Positions 19,439 to 64,000 of a DNA stretch of 64,000 nucleotides are shown piece by piece. Source of the DNA: Pseudomaricurvus alkylphenolicus. Its GTDB lineage: Bacteria > Pseudomonadota > Gammaproteobacteria > Pseudomonadales > Cellvibrionaceae. How positions within the stretch are numbered: position 1 is the first letter of the stretch; each line of letters opens with the position of its first letter. Location: the NCBI RefSeq assembly GCF_011683955.1, contig NZ_JAAQPI010000011.1, forward strand, positions 186,001-250,000, read 5' to 3'. The translations under genes were made by a program, and so were the position numbers. Under the pieces are notes generated by a model. It made no database searches. It was not told the DNA's origin and was given only the letters and a program-made list of their open reading frames with translations.

Positions 19439-19626
19439 GTGCCTCAAAAGGCGGCTGGGGTGCTGTTTTCAGAGCGAATCGGCGGCCCTCCGGGCTACCC
19501 TCAGTCGCCAATGAGCCCGGCAAAAAGCGCCGGTCTCATTGACTCCTTCGGCGCTCGCTTTTAATGCTCTGAAAACAGCACCCCAGCCACCTCAGACTCT
19601 GTAGTTTGTCGAGTCTGTTGCCTCAA
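19439..19626 (+). repeat. Cruciform repeat family, copy A
   Basis: Outer arms 19450-19475 and 19566-19591 are inverted repeats matching at 25 of 26 positions (left starts GGCGGCTGGGGTGCTG, right ends CACCCCAGCCACC). An inner hairpin pairs ATGAGCCCGGC with GCCGGTCTCAT around AAAAAGC. The core is 142 bases. It is flanked by a near-direct repeat, GTGCCTCA (19439) and TTGCCTCA (19619). It fills most of the 379-base gap between the convergent waaA and tolC genes, so it may also terminate both. A degenerate second right arm follows at 19645-19694. No open reading frame of note lies in it. Confidence 0.85.
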
Positions 19627-57194: not shown

Positions 57195-58595
57195 TCAACT
57201 CTGAGAAGAGTTGTTATGAGACGAGCTGCCGTTACCGCCGCGGTTGCCGCCGGAGGGCTTGCGTCTGCGTCGACGGCGACGGTTGGCTCCCCCACCCGGG
57301 CCCGATATCTTTTCACTCATGCGGGTGCGTTCGTCCGCGTCCACATCCTGATAGCGGGTCCACCAATCTCCAAGGCCCTCCAGATCCTCACCGGCCTGCT
57401 CCCTCAGTAATACAAAGTCATAGGCGGCCCGGAAGCGGGGGTGTTCGAAGATCCGCTCGGCGCGTTTGCCCTGGCGGCGGGTCAAGCGATGCTGAAGGTC
57501 CCAGATTTCTTTCATGCCCTGAGTAAAGCGTTTGGGGATAGAAGTGCGTTGCAGTTGCTGGCTGATCACATTTTGAGCGGCTTCTGCAGAGGCTTGCACC
57601 GGAGGCATACCCTCGTCCAGCAATTTGCGTGTTTCGGACTGAACGCTGGGCCAAAGCAGAGCGGCAAAGATAAATGCCGGAGTGACCCGCAGATCTCTCT
57701 GGATGCGATCATCGGTGTTGTGGGCGGCCTGCTCGAACAGGGCCTCGGCATAGGGTAGCTGTTGTTTGAGCGCCTGATCGGTTGCGGGCAGCAGGTATTG
57801 AAGCAGGTCATACTCGCGCAGGCCTTTAAGAACGGCGACACCGTAGCCACCCATAAAGAGTTTGAGAACCTCTTCAAACAGTCTGGCCGCTGGGATGTTC
57901 TCCAGCAGTGGGCCCATTTTGCCAATGGGGGTTGCCGTCGACCGTTCGATATCGAAGTTAAGTTTGGCGGCGAATCTTACGGCGCGCAGCATTCGCACCG
58001 GATCTTCCTGGTAGCGGGTTTCCGGTTTGCCGATCATCCGGATTTTGCGCTCCTGGATGTCTCTCATACCATTGGTAAAGTCGTGGACACTGAATTTATT
58101 CAGGGTGTAATAGAGCGCATTGACGGTAAAGTCACGACGAATGGCATCGGACTGGATGTCGCCATACACGTTGTCGCGCAGCAGCATGCCATCTTCGGAG
58201 CGGGCAGAGTGTTTGGAGCTGGAGGCGTCATGGTGGTGGCCACGGAAGGTGGTGACTTCGATGATTTCTCTGCCAAAGCGAACGTGGACGATTTTGAAGC
58301 GGCGACCAATGATGCGGGCATTGCGAAACAGCTGTTTGACTTGTTCCGGGGTAGCATCGGTGGCGACGTCAAAGTCTTTGGGCTGGTCTTTCAGCAGGAG
58401 ATCCCGGACGCCACCGCCGACCAGGTAAGCTTCGTAGCCTCCATCGCCAAGGCGTTGCATGACTTTAAGGGCGGCACGGCTGATCTGGCGGCGTGAGATG
58501 TTGTGCTCATCTCGCGGCAGTATCTGGTGGTTAATGGCCGGGGTAGACCGGGCCAGGGGGTTCTTGAACGGTAAGCTGAATAGCCGCTTTAACAT
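57195..58595 (-). CDS. pcnB: Poly(A) polymerase I
   Basis: A 466-residue nucleotidyltransferase that adds poly(A) tails to RNA and promotes decay. The Pol-beta type active site is YLVGGGVRDLLLKDQPKDFD with both metal-binding aspartates, followed by RRFKIVHVRFGREIIEV, RRDFTVNALYY and the RNA-binding region (RYQEDPVRMLRAVRFAAKL). The tail is arginine-rich (GANRRRRRRRKPSGG), typical of RNA binders. ATG 58595 is used; an upstream ATG at 58640 has no ribosome site. It is located just downstream of the predicted CrcZ-like RNA, as in Pseudomonas. Confidence 0.92.
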   Translation of the reverse strand: MLKRLFSLPFKNPLARSTPAINHQILPRDEHNISRRQISRAALKVMQRLGDGGYEAYLVGGGVRDLLLKDQPKDFDVATDATPEQVKQLFRNARIIGRRFKIVHVRFGREIIEVTTFRGHHHDASSSKHSARSEDGMLLRDNVYGDIQSDAIRRDFTVNALYYTLNKFSVHDFTNGMRDIQERKIRMIGKPETRYQEDPVRMLRAVRFAAKLNFDIERSTATPIGKMGPLLENIPAARLFEEVLKLFMGGYGVAVLKGLREYDLLQYLLPATDQALKQQLPYAEALFEQAAHNTDDRIQRDLRVTPAFIFAALLWPSVQSETRKLLDEGMPPVQASAEAAQNVISQQLQRTSIPKRFTQGMKEIWDLQHRLTRRQGKRAERIFEHPRFRAAYDFVLLREQAGEDLEGLGDWWTRYQDVDADERTRMSEKISGPGGGANRRRRRRRKPSGGNRGGNGSSSHNNSSQS

Positions 58596-58740
58596 GGTCT
58601 GGACTGCTGATATTGGGTGTGTGAGGACGCAGGGTCTCATTTTCGGGGGCGAAGTGTATCACGGTGACCGGGTAAAGGCATTGTTGTGCTGCCGTTGGCG
58701 GCTTTTATAAGCGGCGTGGGATAGAGAGCGGAGGGCAGAA

Positions 58741-58769
58741 ATGAAAACGGGAAAGCCGAGGCTTTCCCG
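58741..58769 (-). terminator. Intrinsic terminator of the CrcZ-like RNA
   Basis: CGGGAAAGCC (58748-58757) and GGCTTTCCCG (58760-58769) are perfect 10-base arms. On the minus strand the stem is followed directly by TTTTCATTT. The + strand side also has a T-run (GAATTTTTT), but set off by five bases. It lies 146 bases upstream of the pcnB start, so pcnB needs its own promoter or readthrough. Confidence 0.85.
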
Positions 58770-59129
58770 CAGAATTTTTTATTGTCCTTATTATTCTAAG
58801 CAGTCGCGCTGTCTAAAAGAGCGCAGCTTCCTTGCGTCAGGGTTGTTTGCTCTATGGCAAATCCTCTCCAAGTTTTTTAGTCAGTTGTAACAGTCAGTTT
58901 TTAACGCTTTTGTACTTATTGTTTTTTGTTGTTATTAAATTATGTCTTCTTGTTATTGTTTTTTGTTCTTATTGTTAATTTAGTCTTTGTTGTTATTGTT
59001 TGTTGTTTTTATTCTAAGTAGCTTTTTTCTTATTATTTGTTGTTGTTATTTTTATTAATCTTTTTCTTATTGTTTGTTGTTATTAGCGTTGATGTCGTTT
59101 GTTTTTATTGTTTGTTGTTTTTATTATGC
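58741..59129 (-). ncRNA. crcZ: CrcZ-like Hfq/Crc-sequestering small RNA
   Basis: Predicted RNA of about 389 nt read leftward between cbrB and pcnB, the genomic place of Pseudomonas crcZ (about 400 nt). Read on the minus strand, it carries at least six clusters of AAYAAYAA-type motifs, visible on the plus strand as TTRTTRTT: near 58916-58936, 58950-58976, 58987-59007, 59030-59050, 59067-59084 and 59105-59119. Such motifs bind Hfq and Crc. The predicted 5' end follows a sigma-54 promoter (59140-59156), the 3' end an intrinsic terminator (58748-58769). There is no coding ORF. The identity rests on synteny, promoter type, motif clusters and terminator, not on primary-sequence alignment. Confidence 0.8.
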
Positions 59130-59139
59130 TGCCCACTAA

Positions 59140-59231: not shown

Positions 59232-59311
59232 GTTACCTATTGTCCCGAATCTTGTTACGAATCTGTGACGTTGGTAACACTTTGAAATACGTGTAACGGG
59301 TGACTGTTACA
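59232..59311. promoter_or_regulatory. Array of GTTAC/GTAAC half-sites, candidate CbrB enhancer
   Basis: Five half-sites lie 103-182 bases upstream of the predicted sRNA start: GTTAC at 59232, TGTTAC at 59253 with GTAACA at 59274 (15 bases between), and TGTAAC at 59292 with GTTACA at 59306. I recall a TGTTAC/GTAACA palindrome as the CbrB site in Pseudomonas. Enhancer distance suits a sigma-54 activator, which CbrB is. Confidence 0.65.
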
Positions 59312-59424: not shown

Positions 59425-59610
59425 GTGCCTCAAACGGTGGCTGGGGCACTGTTTCCGGAGCGGTCGGGTGGCCCTCCGGGCTTCCCTCAGTCCCAAAAGA
59501 GCCCAGCAAAAGACGCCGGTCTCTTTTGCTCTTTCGGCACCCTCTTTAATGCTCCGGAAACAGTACCCCAGCCACCTTTTACACCGTAGTGCGCTGAGCT
59601 TTGTGCCTCA
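59425..59610 (+). repeat. Cruciform repeat family, copy C
   Basis: Outer arms 59436-59461 and 59551-59576 pair at 25 of 26 bases (left begins GGTGGCTGGGGCACTG, right ends CCCCAGCCACC). An inner hairpin pairs AAAAGAGCCCAGC with GCCGGTCTCTTTT. The core is 141 bases. Direct repeats GTGCCTCA flank it (59425-59432 and 59603-59610), with another GTGCCTCA at 59381 leading a degenerate left arm (59381-59414). It sits between the cbrB stop and the sRNA enhancer region. The remaining parts of this gap (59312-59380 and 59611-59711) show nothing I can name. Confidence 0.85.
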
Positions 59611-59753: not shown

Positions 59754-61169
59754 TTACTTGGCCCCGGCGGCGGTCTTCTTGCGCGGAATGCCCAGGCGTT
59801 GGCGGCGTTCCCACAGGCATTTGCGACTGACGCCCAGTTTACGGGCCAGTTCGGTTTCGCTCATGGTGTCCTGGTGTTCCAGGACGAAACGCTGGAAGTA
59901 ATCTTCCAGTGACAGATCTTCGTTGGGATCCTGGGCCGGGCTGCTGGTCTGCTGCCGGCTTTTCTGGGTCATTTGTACTTGCTGGATGATTTCGTCTTTT
60001 TCGTCGCTGATCTGGACCAGGTCGAGGTCGATGGCAAGCAGGTCGTGGCTGATTTCTTTTTCGTCTTCACAGAGGATCACAGCGCGCTGCATGGCGTTTT
60101 CGAGTTCACGGACGTTACCGGGCCAGGTGTAGGTGGTAACAGCCTGTATGGACTCGGGGCTGAGGGACAGCAGGGGTTTGTCCATGTCGTCACAGAATCG
60201 CTGCAGCAGGTGCTCAGCCAGGGCGATGATGTCTTTGCCGCGGTCTCGCAGTGGTGGCAGTTGCAGTTGTACAACGTTGATACGGTAGTAGAGATCTTCC
60301 CGGAATTTGCCTTCTTTACAGAGTTTGCGCAGGTCGCGGTGAGTGGCGGCTACCAGGCGAACGTCAACTTTGTGGGATTCGGTGGAGCCGATGGGGCGGA
60401 CTTCGCCCTCTTGTAGCACCCTCAGGAGGCGAGCCTGGGCTTCCAGAGGCAGTTCACCGATTTCATCCAGGAACAGTGTGCCACCGTGAGCTGCGGCCAC
60501 CAGGCCCTCACTCTTACTGGCCGCACCGGTAAAGGCGCCTTTTTCATGCCCGAAAAGCTCGGATTCAATCAGGGTCTCAGGGATGGCGGCGCAGTTGACG
60601 GAGATCAGGGGTTTGTTCTGGCGAGGGCTTTCGCTGTGGATGGCCCTGGCGACGAGTTCTTTTCCGGTGCCCGTTTCTCCATTGACCAGGACAGTGGCTG
60701 AGGTGGGGGCGACTTTGTGGATTCGGTTGTAGAGGGTTTTCATGACCGGGCTGGTGCCGATCATGCCCGGGATCTGGTGGCTGGAGGTCTTGCTGGGTTT
60801 TCGTTGGCGGGCGGCGTCGTTGGCTTTGCCGATGACTCGTTTGACTGCGTTGACCATTTCGTCATGGTCAAAGGGCTTGGCGATGTAATCGACGGCACCC
60901 AAGCGCATGGAGTCCACGGCGGATCTGAGGCTGGCGTAGCTGGTCATGATCAGCACCGGAACTTCGCCGGCTTCCTTGATCAGATCGGTGCCTGGAGCAC
61001 CGGGCAGGCGCAGGTCACTGATGATGAGGTCGTAGCGGCTGAGATCATGGCGATGGCAGGCTTCCTTGACCGAGGCGGCTTCACTGACACTGTATTTGTT
61101 GCGCTCAAGCAATTTGCGCAGTGCCGTGCGGATGATGGCCTCATCTTCAACAACCAGAATGTTACTCAT
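59754..61169 (-). CDS. cbrB: Sigma-54-dependent response regulator CbrB
   Basis: A 471-residue NtrC-family activator. The receiver domain has [16 protein letters not shown] with the acid pocket and the phospho-acceptor near residue 52 in IISDLRLPG. The AAA+ domain has Walker [22 protein letters not shown] (sigma-54 contact loop), [20 protein letters not shown] and a later arginine finger. The C-terminal Fis-type HTH is [23 protein letters not shown] 61169 is the domain start. It is 34 bases after cbrA, and its target is probably the sRNA downstream. In Pseudomonas CbrAB senses C/N balance. Confidence 0.9.
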
Positions 61170-61203
61170 AGACGCAGTGTTACCCGATTTGTTACAAGAA
61201 TAA

Positions 61204-64000
61204 TCAGTTAGTGTTACCTGACTCGTGCTGACTTTCAAGGTTTAGGGGCAATTTAATGGAAATTTGAGTGCCAAGTGTTTGTCCGGGGGCCGGACTGAGA
61301 ATATCCAGGTGCCCTTCGTGGTCTTCGACGATGCTGTAAACCATGGCCAGGCCCAGCCCCGTCCCCTCGCCGGGGTCTTTACTGGTGAAAAAGGGTTCCA
61401 ATACCCGTTCCTGGTGTTCGGCGGGTATGCCGCTACCCTGGTCGATGACACGGAACTGGGCAAAGTGGCCTTCTATCGAGCTTTCCAGTCTGACTTCACT
61501 GTCTTCGGGGCTGGCGTCGCGGGCATTGGACAGCAGGTTGATAAACACCTGGATCAGGCGCTGTGAGTCGGCACGCACAGAAAGGTGGGTGTCGATGTGG
61601 TTGCGGAAGCGGACCTGTGTCTTATCCTTTTGCAGCGACAGCAGAGCAATGGCTTCTTCGGCGCAATCTCTCAGGCTCACCGTCATAAAGTCGATTTTGT
61701 CTTGCTGGCCAGTGTGGGAGAAGCTCACAAGAGACTGAACAATACGGCTGACCCGTTGGGTCTGACTGAGGATCTGCTGGGCGGTGTCTTCGGCTGCTTC
61801 CGGATCATCGGTCTCGTACTTTAGGTTCTGGGCAAGACAGGCAATACCGGTGATGGGGTTGCCAATTTCGTGGGCAACGCCAGCGGCCAGTCGGCCCACG
61901 GAGGCCAGTCGTTCACTGTGCACCAGTTCTTGCTCAAGCAGTTGGGTTTCAGTCATGTCTTCCAGCAGAATGACCTGACCATCGGCGCTGTTGGCCACGG
62001 GGCTGGCGATATTGGCTTTGTGCAGACTAATCCAATGGGAGCGGCCACCCAGGTCCAGCTGCTGTTTATGCAAGTGGGGCATAGGGCTGCGGGAGAAGTC
62101 TTCCAACAGTTGGCGCCAGGGTTGTTTGAGATCGTCCAGGTGCGATCCTATCACTGTCTCGGATGGGATATCGGTCAGCGCCACCATTGCCTGGTTCCAC
62201 ATCAGGATCTCCAGGTCTTGCCCCAGCGAGCAAACCGCCATCGGTAGTTCTTCCAGGGTGTTGCGGTGGTACAGCCTCAGGTTGTTGAGTTCGGCCGCCA
62301 TGCCGGTCAGTTGGCTGCGGTATTTGGTCAAGCGGTTTTCAATCAGGTTGATGTCGGCTGTGCCCTTCGCCTCTGGCAGATGGTAGGGGATGTGGCGGTC
62401 GAGGATTTCGGATGCCACCGCAGTGCCCATCAGGCCCGACAGGTTGGCTTCCAGCTTGTCGCGCAGACGCCTGAGGGCGTAAGGGCGACGTTCATTGCGG
62501 TTGAGATTGAGATCGTCCAGCGCCCGCTTCAATTCTTTGCGCGCACTGTCTTCGCCCAGACTCTTGGCCAGGCGGGTAGCAAATTCATCTGCGCTGTGTA
62601 CGTCGAGGATCATACGCAGGGGGTGGCTGAGTTCATCTTCGGCGCAAAGCTCGGCACTGTAACGCTCTTCCTCACTGGTGCGAGTGGTGAGTGACAACAG
62701 AACGAATGCACCCACATTGAGGCCCAGGGACATCAGCGTGATGGTATTCCAGTAATCAATTCCCAGTCCGATTTCTTTATCCAGCACAGGCACGGTTACG
62801 TGATCGATACCAAAGACTGTTGGCAGTAAGAGCCCGACCATCCACACCAGTGTGCCGAGGCACAGCCCCCAGATAAATCCCCGGCTGTTGGCCGTTGGCC
62901 AGTAGGCGACGGCAAAGATGCCTGGCAGAAACTGCAGCGTTTCAATAAATGCCATCAGCGCCAGATGGGTAAGGCTGTAGTTATTATCCAGCAATTGATA
63001 GAAGGCATAACCGGCAGAGAATACCAATAAAATCAATACTCTCCGTGACCACAGCAGTTGGCGATAGAGGTTGTGACGCCCCAATCGGGTGGCCGGTAAC
63101 AACCAGTAGTTGAGCAGCATGGTGCTCAGTGCCAGGCACAGGGCCACCATGGCCCCGGTGGCCGCCGCCACGCCTCCGAGGAAGGCCAGCAGGGTGAACC
63201 CGGGAGAGTTCATTTGCATGGGGATGCCGAGGGTAAAGTACTGGGCTGGCAAGTTGACTCCCAGTTCGAAGCCGGCCCAGAGAATCGGGAAGATGGGTAG
63301 CGCCAAAAACAGCAAAAACAGGGGAAAGGCCCAGCTCAGTGTGGCCGTGGTTTTGTGCAGGGGGTTTTCCACCACGCTCATATGGAAGATGTGAGGCATG
63401 GAGATGGCCGTCGCCAGGAATACCAGCAGCAGGGTGTGCGAGGCGGTGTCGTGGATTGGCTGGTGCAGTAATTCCAGGTTTTCTGGGTAGTCCAGCAGCC
63501 ATTGGTCCAGTTCGTCAAGTCCGCCAAAAACGCCATAGACAGCCAGCAGGCCAATTGCCATCAGGGCGACTACCTTGATCAGAGATTCAAGCGCCATGGC
63601 GACCACCAGGCCTGGATGTTGATCGCGGCCCGAGCCGAACAGTACGGTGAACAGGGCCAGCAATACGCAATAGGCCAGAGCCATCACCTCACGGAAACTC
63701 CAGTCGTTAAGTGCATCCGGGAGCTCTTCGGTACTGTTGATGGTGATAATCTGAAGGGTGTCGGCAACCGCCTGTATTTGCAGGGCCAGCAGTGGCAGAC
63801 AGGCCATCACCATACCGGCCGTTACCAGACTGCCCGCCGCCTGGCTGTGGTACCGAAATACCAACAGATCCGCCAGGCTGCCAATCTGGAAGCGGCGGGC
63901 GAGCTGAGCCAGCGGTGCAATTGCGACAGGGGCAAACAGGAATAACGCGCCGGTGCCCAGGTAATAAGCCAGAGCGCCATAGCCAAATTGAAACGCCAGG
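61204..64000 (-). CDS. cbrA: Sensor kinase CbrA with SSF transporter domain, 5' end outside window
   Basis: The frame is open to the window edge, so only the C-terminal 931 residues are seen. The visible N-terminal part is a sodium:solute symporter (SSF) membrane domain with about ten helices, beginning before RFQIGSLADLLVFRYHS. A linker and a PAS-like region (LEELPMAVCSLGQDLEILMW) follow. HisKA has GVAHEIGNPITGIACLAQNL with the phospho-histidine; the ATPase has NLLSNARDASPEDSEV and GEGTGLGLAMVYSIVEDH. This transporter-kinase fusion is characteristic of CbrA. The neighbour cbrB and the downstream pcnB-folK-panB support the call. The missing N-terminus is not annotated. Confidence 0.9.
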   Translation of the reverse strand, partial: LAFQFGYGALAYYLGTGALFLFAPVAIAPLAQLARRFQIGSLADLLVFRYHSQAAGSLVTAGMVMACLPLLALQIQAVADTLQIITINSTEELPDALNDWSFREVMALAYCVLLALFTVLFGSGRDQHPGLVVAMALESLIKVVALMAIGLLAVYGVFGGLDELDQWLLDYPENLELLHQPIHDTASHTLLLVFLATAISMPHIFHMSVVENPLHKTTATLSWAFPLFLLFLALPIFPILWAGFELGVNLPAQYFTLGIPMQMNSPGFTLLAFLGGVAAATGAMVALCLALSTMLLNYWLLPATRLGRHNLYRQLLWSRRVLILLVFSAGYAFYQLLDNNYSLTHLALMAFIETLQFLPGIFAVAYWPTANSRGFIWGLCLGTLVWMVGLLLPTVFGIDHVTVPVLDKEIGLGIDYWNTITLMSLGLNVGAFVLLSLTTRTSEEERYSAELCAEDELSHPLRMILDVHSADEFATRLAKSLGEDSARKELKRALDDLNLNRNERRPYALRRLRDKLEANLSGLMGTAVASEILDRHIPYHLPEAKGTADINLIENRLTKYRSQLTGMAAELNNLRLYHRNTLEELPMAVCSLGQDLEILMWNQAMVALTDIPSETVIGSHLDDLKQPWRQLLEDFSRSPMPHLHKQQLDLGGRSHWISLHKANIASPVANSADGQVILLEDMTETQLLEQELVHSERLASVGRLAAGVAHEIGNPITGIACLAQNLKYETDDPEAAEDTAQQILSQTQRVSRIVQSLVSFSHTGQQDKIDFMTVSLRDCAEEAIALLSLQKDKTQVRFRNHIDTHLSVRADSQRLIQVFINLLSNARDASPEDSEVRLESSIEGHFAQFRVIDQGSGIPAEHQERVLEPFFTSKDPGEGTGLGLAMVYSIVEDHEGHLDILSPAPGQTLGTQISIKLPLNLESQHESGNTN

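Follow-up and report, generated by a model that had tools for sequence, protein, structure and literature searches.

The minus strand of the window (the whole stretch of DNA that was analysed, 64 kb of the 8.88-Mb genome of Pseudomaricurvus alkylphenolicus, a member of the Cellvibrionaceae) encodes cbrA (61204..63999, its 5' end lying outside the window), cbrB (59754..61205) and, further downstream, pcnB (57195..58595, with an alternative start at 58640). The cbrA product joins an SLC5 transporter part to a histidine kinase: its residues 1-540 match PDB 10ED (Pseudomonas CbrXA SLC5-STAC, E 5.3e-145) and are followed by HisKA and HATPase_c domains. CbrB is an NtrC-type sigma-54 activator with Response_reg and Sigma54_activat domains, and the pcnB product, a poly(A) polymerase, scores 542.6 bits against TIGR01942 (cut-off 305.65). 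On the same strand, 3' of cbrB and 5' of pcnB, lies a predicted RNA gene of 390 nt (58741..59130), the start of which, at about 59130, we infer from the usual spacing of a sigma-54 box. The initial annotation had read this gap as a sigma-54 promoter followed by a crcZ-type noncoding RNA at 58741-59129 and a strong terminator; its coordinates were correct to about one base (predicted transcript 59130-58741), and the promoter is found as TGGCACGGGCAATGC, of the form GG-N10-GC, at 59155-59141.

What that annotation had overlooked are the CbrB half-sites upstream of the sigma-54 box. Three of them, F1 (TGTTAC, 59279-59274), R1 (GTAACA, 59258-59253) and R2 (GTAACG, 59236-59231), form the array TGTTAC-N15-GTAACA-N16-GTAACG, 75 nt upstream of the box on the minus strand, and two additional half-sites (59293..59310) stand at 59310-59305 (GTAACA) and 59298-59293 (CGTTAC). 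The array fits the consensus TGTTAC-N12-14-GTAACA-N15-19-GTAACA given in published sections on CbrB (PMC8871633; see also PMC6296734) except in the first spacer, which is 15 nt long instead of 12-14. Judged from the sequence, the gene has the F1-R1-R2 half-sites and sigma-54 promoter of a crcZ gene. Between cbrB and the CbrB boxes there is also a long inverted repeat (59432-59461 / 59551-59580), a similar copy of which occurs elsewhere in the window (19449-19475 / 19566-19592), indicating a repeated hairpin element; two Rfam matches to microRNA families in the window both fall on this repeat (59432-59580) and were rejected.

The predicted RNA and its proposed protein partners

The predicted RNA begins with an A-rich domain (A makes up 65% of nt 1-230) that is largely unpaired in the predicted fold and ends with an intrinsic terminator, a hairpin at 58770-58747 with a T-rich tail. 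Its sense strand carries 20 AAYAAYAA motifs, grouped in eight clusters (the initial annotation had given at least six), and its antisense strand carries none. Most of these motifs, candidate sites of the Hfq distal-face type, lie in the 5' domain (58906..59124, minus strand); several A-rich sites on the sense strand are likewise a feature of CrcZ. First-order Markov resampling of the same 390 nt gave a mean of 0.92 motifs and a maximum of 6, letter shuffles a mean of 0.93 and a maximum of 8 (n=2000 each), and the remainder of the 64-kb window holds seven motifs on both strands, with at most two per 390 nt of a single strand. All three sense frames of the RNA are interrupted by many stops.

The comparison with the Rfam CrcZ model (RF01675) gives a more nuanced picture. 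The predicted RNA matches the model with 39.4 bits (E 1.3e-8 when the window was searched, 2.1e-8 genome-wide), and nothing else in the genome matches the model at E<=0.001. However, the gathering score is 95 bits, and Rfam run over the window at the gathering threshold returned zero matches, the CrcZ match appearing by E-value search only. As the alignment starts within the A-rich domain and extends beyond the terminator, the score may in part reflect composition. The expectation that an ordinary homology search would miss this RNA therefore holds only in part: the model does find it (E 2.1e-8), but with a score far under the cut-off, and it matches only seven of the 61 genomes of the family under stricter filters, one of the seven matches (G034) lying away from cbrB. 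By position, promoter and motifs, although not by Rfam's rule, the predicted RNA is of the CrcZ type.

The proteins of the circuit are encoded in the same genome. Hfq is near-identical to P. aeruginosa Hfq (E 1.8e-40) and retains Y25. The crc gene, which the initial annotation had proposed to look for, is present next to pyrE, in divergent orientation; its product of 257 aa matches P. aeruginosa Crc (E 1.9e-74), retains none of the four nuclease residues, keeps R140, and stands apart from ExoIII-type proteins on the tree described below. The published text on the structure of the Hfq-Crc-amiE complex (PMC6422490) places R140 in contact with RNA. The residues R229, R230, F231, R233 and W255 of the P. 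aeruginosa Crc dimer interface are not conserved in this Crc, and the Hfq-Crc assembly may differ for this reason.

Taken together, we consider it highly probable that the cbrB-pcnB gap encodes a CrcZ-type decoy RNA acting within a CbrAB/Hfq/Crc circuit. We base this explanation directly on the sequence architecture, on how widely that architecture is conserved and on the finding that CbrA, CbrB, Hfq and Crc are all encoded, while transcription, Hfq/Crc binding and the effect on translation are carried over from Pseudomonas. On that analogy, when good carbon sources are exhausted, the transporter-kinase CbrA would phosphorylate CbrB, which, bound to its half-sites, would act with sigma-54 RNA polymerase to transcribe the 390-nt RNA; the A-rich 5' domain would then capture Hfq by its distal face, at several sites and along with Crc in genomes that have it, and Hfq/Crc would be drawn away from A-rich ribosome-binding sites, allowing catabolic mRNAs to be translated. 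The RNA very likely titrates Hfq and would thereby relieve carbon catabolite repression. It resembles CrcZ of P. aeruginosa and P. putida (RF01675) in its cbrB-pcnB position, half-sites, sigma-54 promoter, length (about 400 nt for CrcZ) and several A-rich sites, and a single promoter pattern fits both; it differs from CrcZ in falling under the Rfam cut-off and in its 20 AAYAAYAA motifs. CrcY and CrcX of P. putida, P. syringae and A. vinelandii are decoys of the same kind, as described in part of a review (PMC8871633); unlike their bearers, the present genome has one copy by the promoter pattern and the Rfam model. It is well supported, from architecture and synteny, that the element would be a CrcZ-type Hfq decoy, a known kind of RNA now found outside the Pseudomonadaceae.

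Conservation in the Cellvibrionaceae and a candidate RsmA/CsrA site

All 61 genomes of the family have a CbrB match at E<=1e-100, and in 57 of them at least three AAYAAYAA motifs were counted on the sense strand 3' of cbrB, as far as pcnB or over at most 1400 nt, with antisense counts of 0 or 1 in all 61; motifs were not seen in the gaps of L018, L051 (a contig end), L058 and L069. A TGGCAY box with upstream half-sites, mostly near -123, -102 and -80 relative to the box, is found in 55 of the 61 genomes. Here and in the other families the box was picked for having the best surroundings, the motifs counting among these, which makes the counts motif-aware; the antisense and resampling controls are separate. 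This conservation of the motif clusters in relatives, along with the crc gene, supports the crcZ-type reading proposed initially.

The A-rich stretch might instead be the 5' leader of the pcnB mRNA, an untranslated region regulated by Hfq, as it lies directly 5' of pcnB on the same strand and read-through could occur. However, the strong terminator would end the RNA ahead of pcnB, and 44 of the 55 family RNAs have a terminator-like hairpin, which scores at least 30 in 40 of them. Moreover, the stretch searched contained an identified pcnB in 49 of the 61 genomes, and eight of the 12 stretches in which none was found keep at least three sense motifs. We therefore regard a pcnB leader as very improbable and retain the CrcZ-type decoy RNA.

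The 3' domain of the RNA presents a second conserved feature. In an alignment of this domain from 37 family RNAs, CA-N-GGA-N-G is near-invariant, and CANGGANG occurs in 41 of the 55 family RNAs where 2.7 were expected by Markov resampling; in the window it forms the loop (CAAGGAAG) of a hairpin at 58827..58834 on the minus strand. The pair adjoining the closing C-G pair of this hairpin (n=41) is G-C in 27 RNAs, A-U in 11, G-U in one and non-standard in two, where reshuffled pairing gave a mean of 31.6 and a maximum of 37 in 5000 rounds, relatedness being uncorrected, and an outer stem of at least three pairs is possible in 27 of the 41 as against 17.8 expected (maximum 24 in 300), relatedness being again uncorrected. 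According to the available text of one study, RsmA favours ANGGA within hairpins, and P. aeruginosa CrcZ is bound in vitro by both RsmA and RsmN, through its AGGGA and UUGGA elements (PMC6061880). We take the conserved CANGGANG hairpin as a lead, a candidate RsmA/CsrA site. The window RNA has a UUGGA element as well (58867..58871, minus strand), but as a second candidate Rsm site it is weak: UUGGA occurs in 22 of the 55 family RNAs where 11.2 would be expected. With a signal this weak, we rejected it on this recount as a strongly conserved element. Nor does CANGGANG stand as a general feature of CrcZ, an idea we also rejected: in contrast to the family RNAs, it occurs in one of nine Rfam-located loci (eight of family f20 and one of f2; a tenth, L114, has no row) and in none of the 41 listed Pseudomonadaceae stretches. 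Family f20 is taken here as Pseudomonadaceae because it gives the top RF01675 scores and its Crc groups with P. aeruginosa Crc.

RsmY, RsmZ and CsrB are protein-titrating decoy RNAs with many GGA hairpins, in which GGA lies in loops. One may then ask whether the RNA is mainly a decoy of RsmA/CsrA, with Hfq secondary. The CANGGANG loop with its covarying closing stem, the in vitro binding cited above and the csrA genes of this genome (three above the cut-off, a fourth under it) would fit such a role. Set against RsmY, RsmZ and CsrB, though, the window RNA has a single CANGGANG beside about eight A-rich clusters, and ANGGA altogether is below expectation in the 55 family RNAs (68 against 96.7 expected), which makes a primarily Rsm-directed function, in our opinion, a very small probability compared with the Hfq decoy.

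Distribution across the order Pseudomonadales

According to passages of a review and of a research article, CbrAB occurs exclusively in the Pseudomonadaceae (PMC8871633, PMC6296734), and the open-licence articles, in the parts available, yielded no report of CrcZ outside this family. The statement on CbrAB is too narrow. The order Pseudomonadales is used here in the GTDB sense, in which, as the consulted portion of Liao et al. describes, Cellvibrionales and most Oceanospirillales are merged into it (PMC7498684). The order was scanned with a promoter pattern that contained only R1, R2 and the sigma-54 box: it hit 63 of the 244 genomes, as against one of 244 for the reversed pattern, and all nine genomes of f20. 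In named genomes, a narrower promoter pattern matched at least 119 stretches, which by their titles sort into 41 of Pseudomonadaceae, 72 of other compatible gammaproteobacteria, one of Granulosicoccaceae and five of unrelated groups (Porphyromonas, Thermodesulfobacteriota, Clostridiales, Rhodopila and Oscillospiraceae). Among the matches listed, at least two sense motifs follow within the next 420 nt in 41 of 41 Pseudomonadaceae stretches and 67 of the 72 other compatible ones, with totals of 176 and 539 sense motifs, respectively, against two antisense for these 41 and 72 stretches. Fewer than two motifs were seen in five of the 72 listed (none in L125, L172, L181 and L212, one in L215); likewise among the matches listed, the Granulosicoccaceae stretch has one motif and so does not reach two, and none of the five unrelated stretches has any motif in the next 420 nt. 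Since the pattern required no motifs, these counts constitute an independent test. Culturable relatives that bear the gene include Microbulbifer thermotolerans DSM 19189 (L228) and Marinimicrobium agarilyticum DSM 16975 (L167).

We then sampled other families by hand, picking, among the matches listed, 78 of the 184 genomes of other families whose CbrB match reaches E<=1e-120; families f5, f13, f15, f20, f35, f39 and f43 have CbrB matches outside this sample. Two of the 78 were dropped for a gap of at most 200 nt, L360 at a contig end and L357 (G101 of f42), a negative in which the cbrB-pcnB gap of 89 nt leaves no space for an RNA gene, and 76 were usable. The full layout, defined as two or more half-sites and two or more sense motifs together with a TGGCA box, was found in 61 of these 76 genomes and in at least one genome of 28 of the 33 other families, whereas it was found on none of the 76 antisense strands and never in 20 rounds of Markov resampling. 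Beside cbrB it is missing from 15 of the 76, including all sampled genomes of f2, f8, f10, f17 and f29; in f2 the stretch ends at a contig end and RF01675 scores above its cut-off elsewhere in the same genome, and in f8 RF01675 has a match in G067 away from cbrB. The idea that the A-rich stretch is low-complexity DNA or a chance spacer with no RNA function, to which the poor conservation between motifs lends itself (mean column identity of 42% in the 3' domain alignment of the family RNAs), appears extremely improbable in view of the strand asymmetry of AAYAAYAA in the other families (402 sense, 19 antisense, 20.3 expected), the absence of the full layout from antisense and resampled sequence, the constant position 3' of a conserved CbrB/sigma-54 promoter and the conserved terminator.

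The suggestion that the circuit might be more widespread than thought is borne out, the layout occurring in 28 families besides the window's own. Most likely, the CbrAB-crcZ circuit is not an invention of the Pseudomonadaceae and dates from early in the order Pseudomonadales. With 28 further families bearing the layout, control of carbon use by an Hfq decoy may operate across much of the marine gammaproteobacteria, and this wider spread, partly in genomes with no detectable Crc, is of more interest than the single member in the window. In family f47 (L088-L094) and in L189 (HTCC2143), two tandem CbrB/sigma-54 promoters are separated by about 290-490 bp and each leads into a separate stretch of A-rich motifs, so that the copies lie side by side; a GAGACCTGGATGGGG block is common to several of the f47 copies.

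Crc presence and absence beside the RNA gene

Identity alone was rejected as a test for Crc, given that ExoIII-type paralogs whose active site is intact can score as well as E 4e-75 (G128). Crc hits were re-sorted by their active-site residues, which altered the Crc status of f16, f21, f25, f32, f44 and of G087 of f28. Sixty-six rows, including P. aeruginosa, are Crc-type, with 0-2 of the four nuclease residues and R140 in all, and 16 rows are ExoIII-type, with 3-4 of the four; a tree of the 82 rows separates the 66 from the 16 with a support of 100/100. G173 counts among the Crc families by virtue of a fragment of Crc where a contig ends, and in f17 the sorted hit of G149 is ExoIII-type and G176 has Crc. 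Family f26 has a Crc hit in nine of nine genomes, Crc-type in the six sorted, and none of its genomes has a CbrB match at E<=1e-120.

A Crc-type hit is absent from 20 genomes of eight families. In ten of them the best hit is ExoIII-type only (G084 of f25, G087 of f28, G091 of f32, G116 and G175 of f16, G120 of f21, and G139, G193, G258 and G277 of f44); in eight f28 genomes, 93-99% complete, the best Crc match is no better than 1.9e-9; and G062 (f3, 75% complete) and G092 (f33) have no Crc match at 1e-3. The searches went to 1e-40 for f16, f21, G139 and G193 and to 1e-30 for G084, G091, G258 and G277, and a highly divergent Crc could escape them. The full crcZ layout is nonetheless found in 19 of these 20 genomes, G206 of f28 being the exception, and seven f28 genomes have 10-15 motifs each. 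In an unrooted tree built from partial PcnB sequences, the 13 Crc-less rows (f16, f21, f25, f28 and f44) need three changes of Crc status, two of them forced by well-supported branches, in a tree whose bootstrap has not settled. We read the absence of Crc as loss, the alternative being that some lineages never had Crc; in either case, the RNA gene is kept where Crc is not detected. Hfq is itself the repressor, and CrcZ binds its distal face, as reported in the part of the article available (PMC4063720). The retention of the RNA gene without detectable Crc fits a predicted titration of Hfq itself, and such genomes offer natural experiments on what Crc contributes to Hfq.

It is therefore tempting to combine these observations into one picture, in which an ancestral CbrAB-crcZ circuit of the Pseudomonadales has Hfq as its primary target, circuits free of Crc exist, and an Rsm site characterizes the Cellvibrionaceae; we lean towards this joint reading by a narrow balance. 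If it is true, the RsmA/CsrA site of the Cellvibrionaceae would link the Gac/Rsm and carbon circuits. Two minor observations concern the comparison of genomes with and without Crc. A half-site stands near -80 in 35 of the 42 full layouts of Crc families and near -90 in 14 of the 19 of Crc-less families, a shift of about one helical turn that is confounded by relatedness. Lastly, in L370, L421 and L434 Crc is accompanied by an ExoIII-type paralog whose active site is largely intact, a combination that should be useful to date the origin of Crc.
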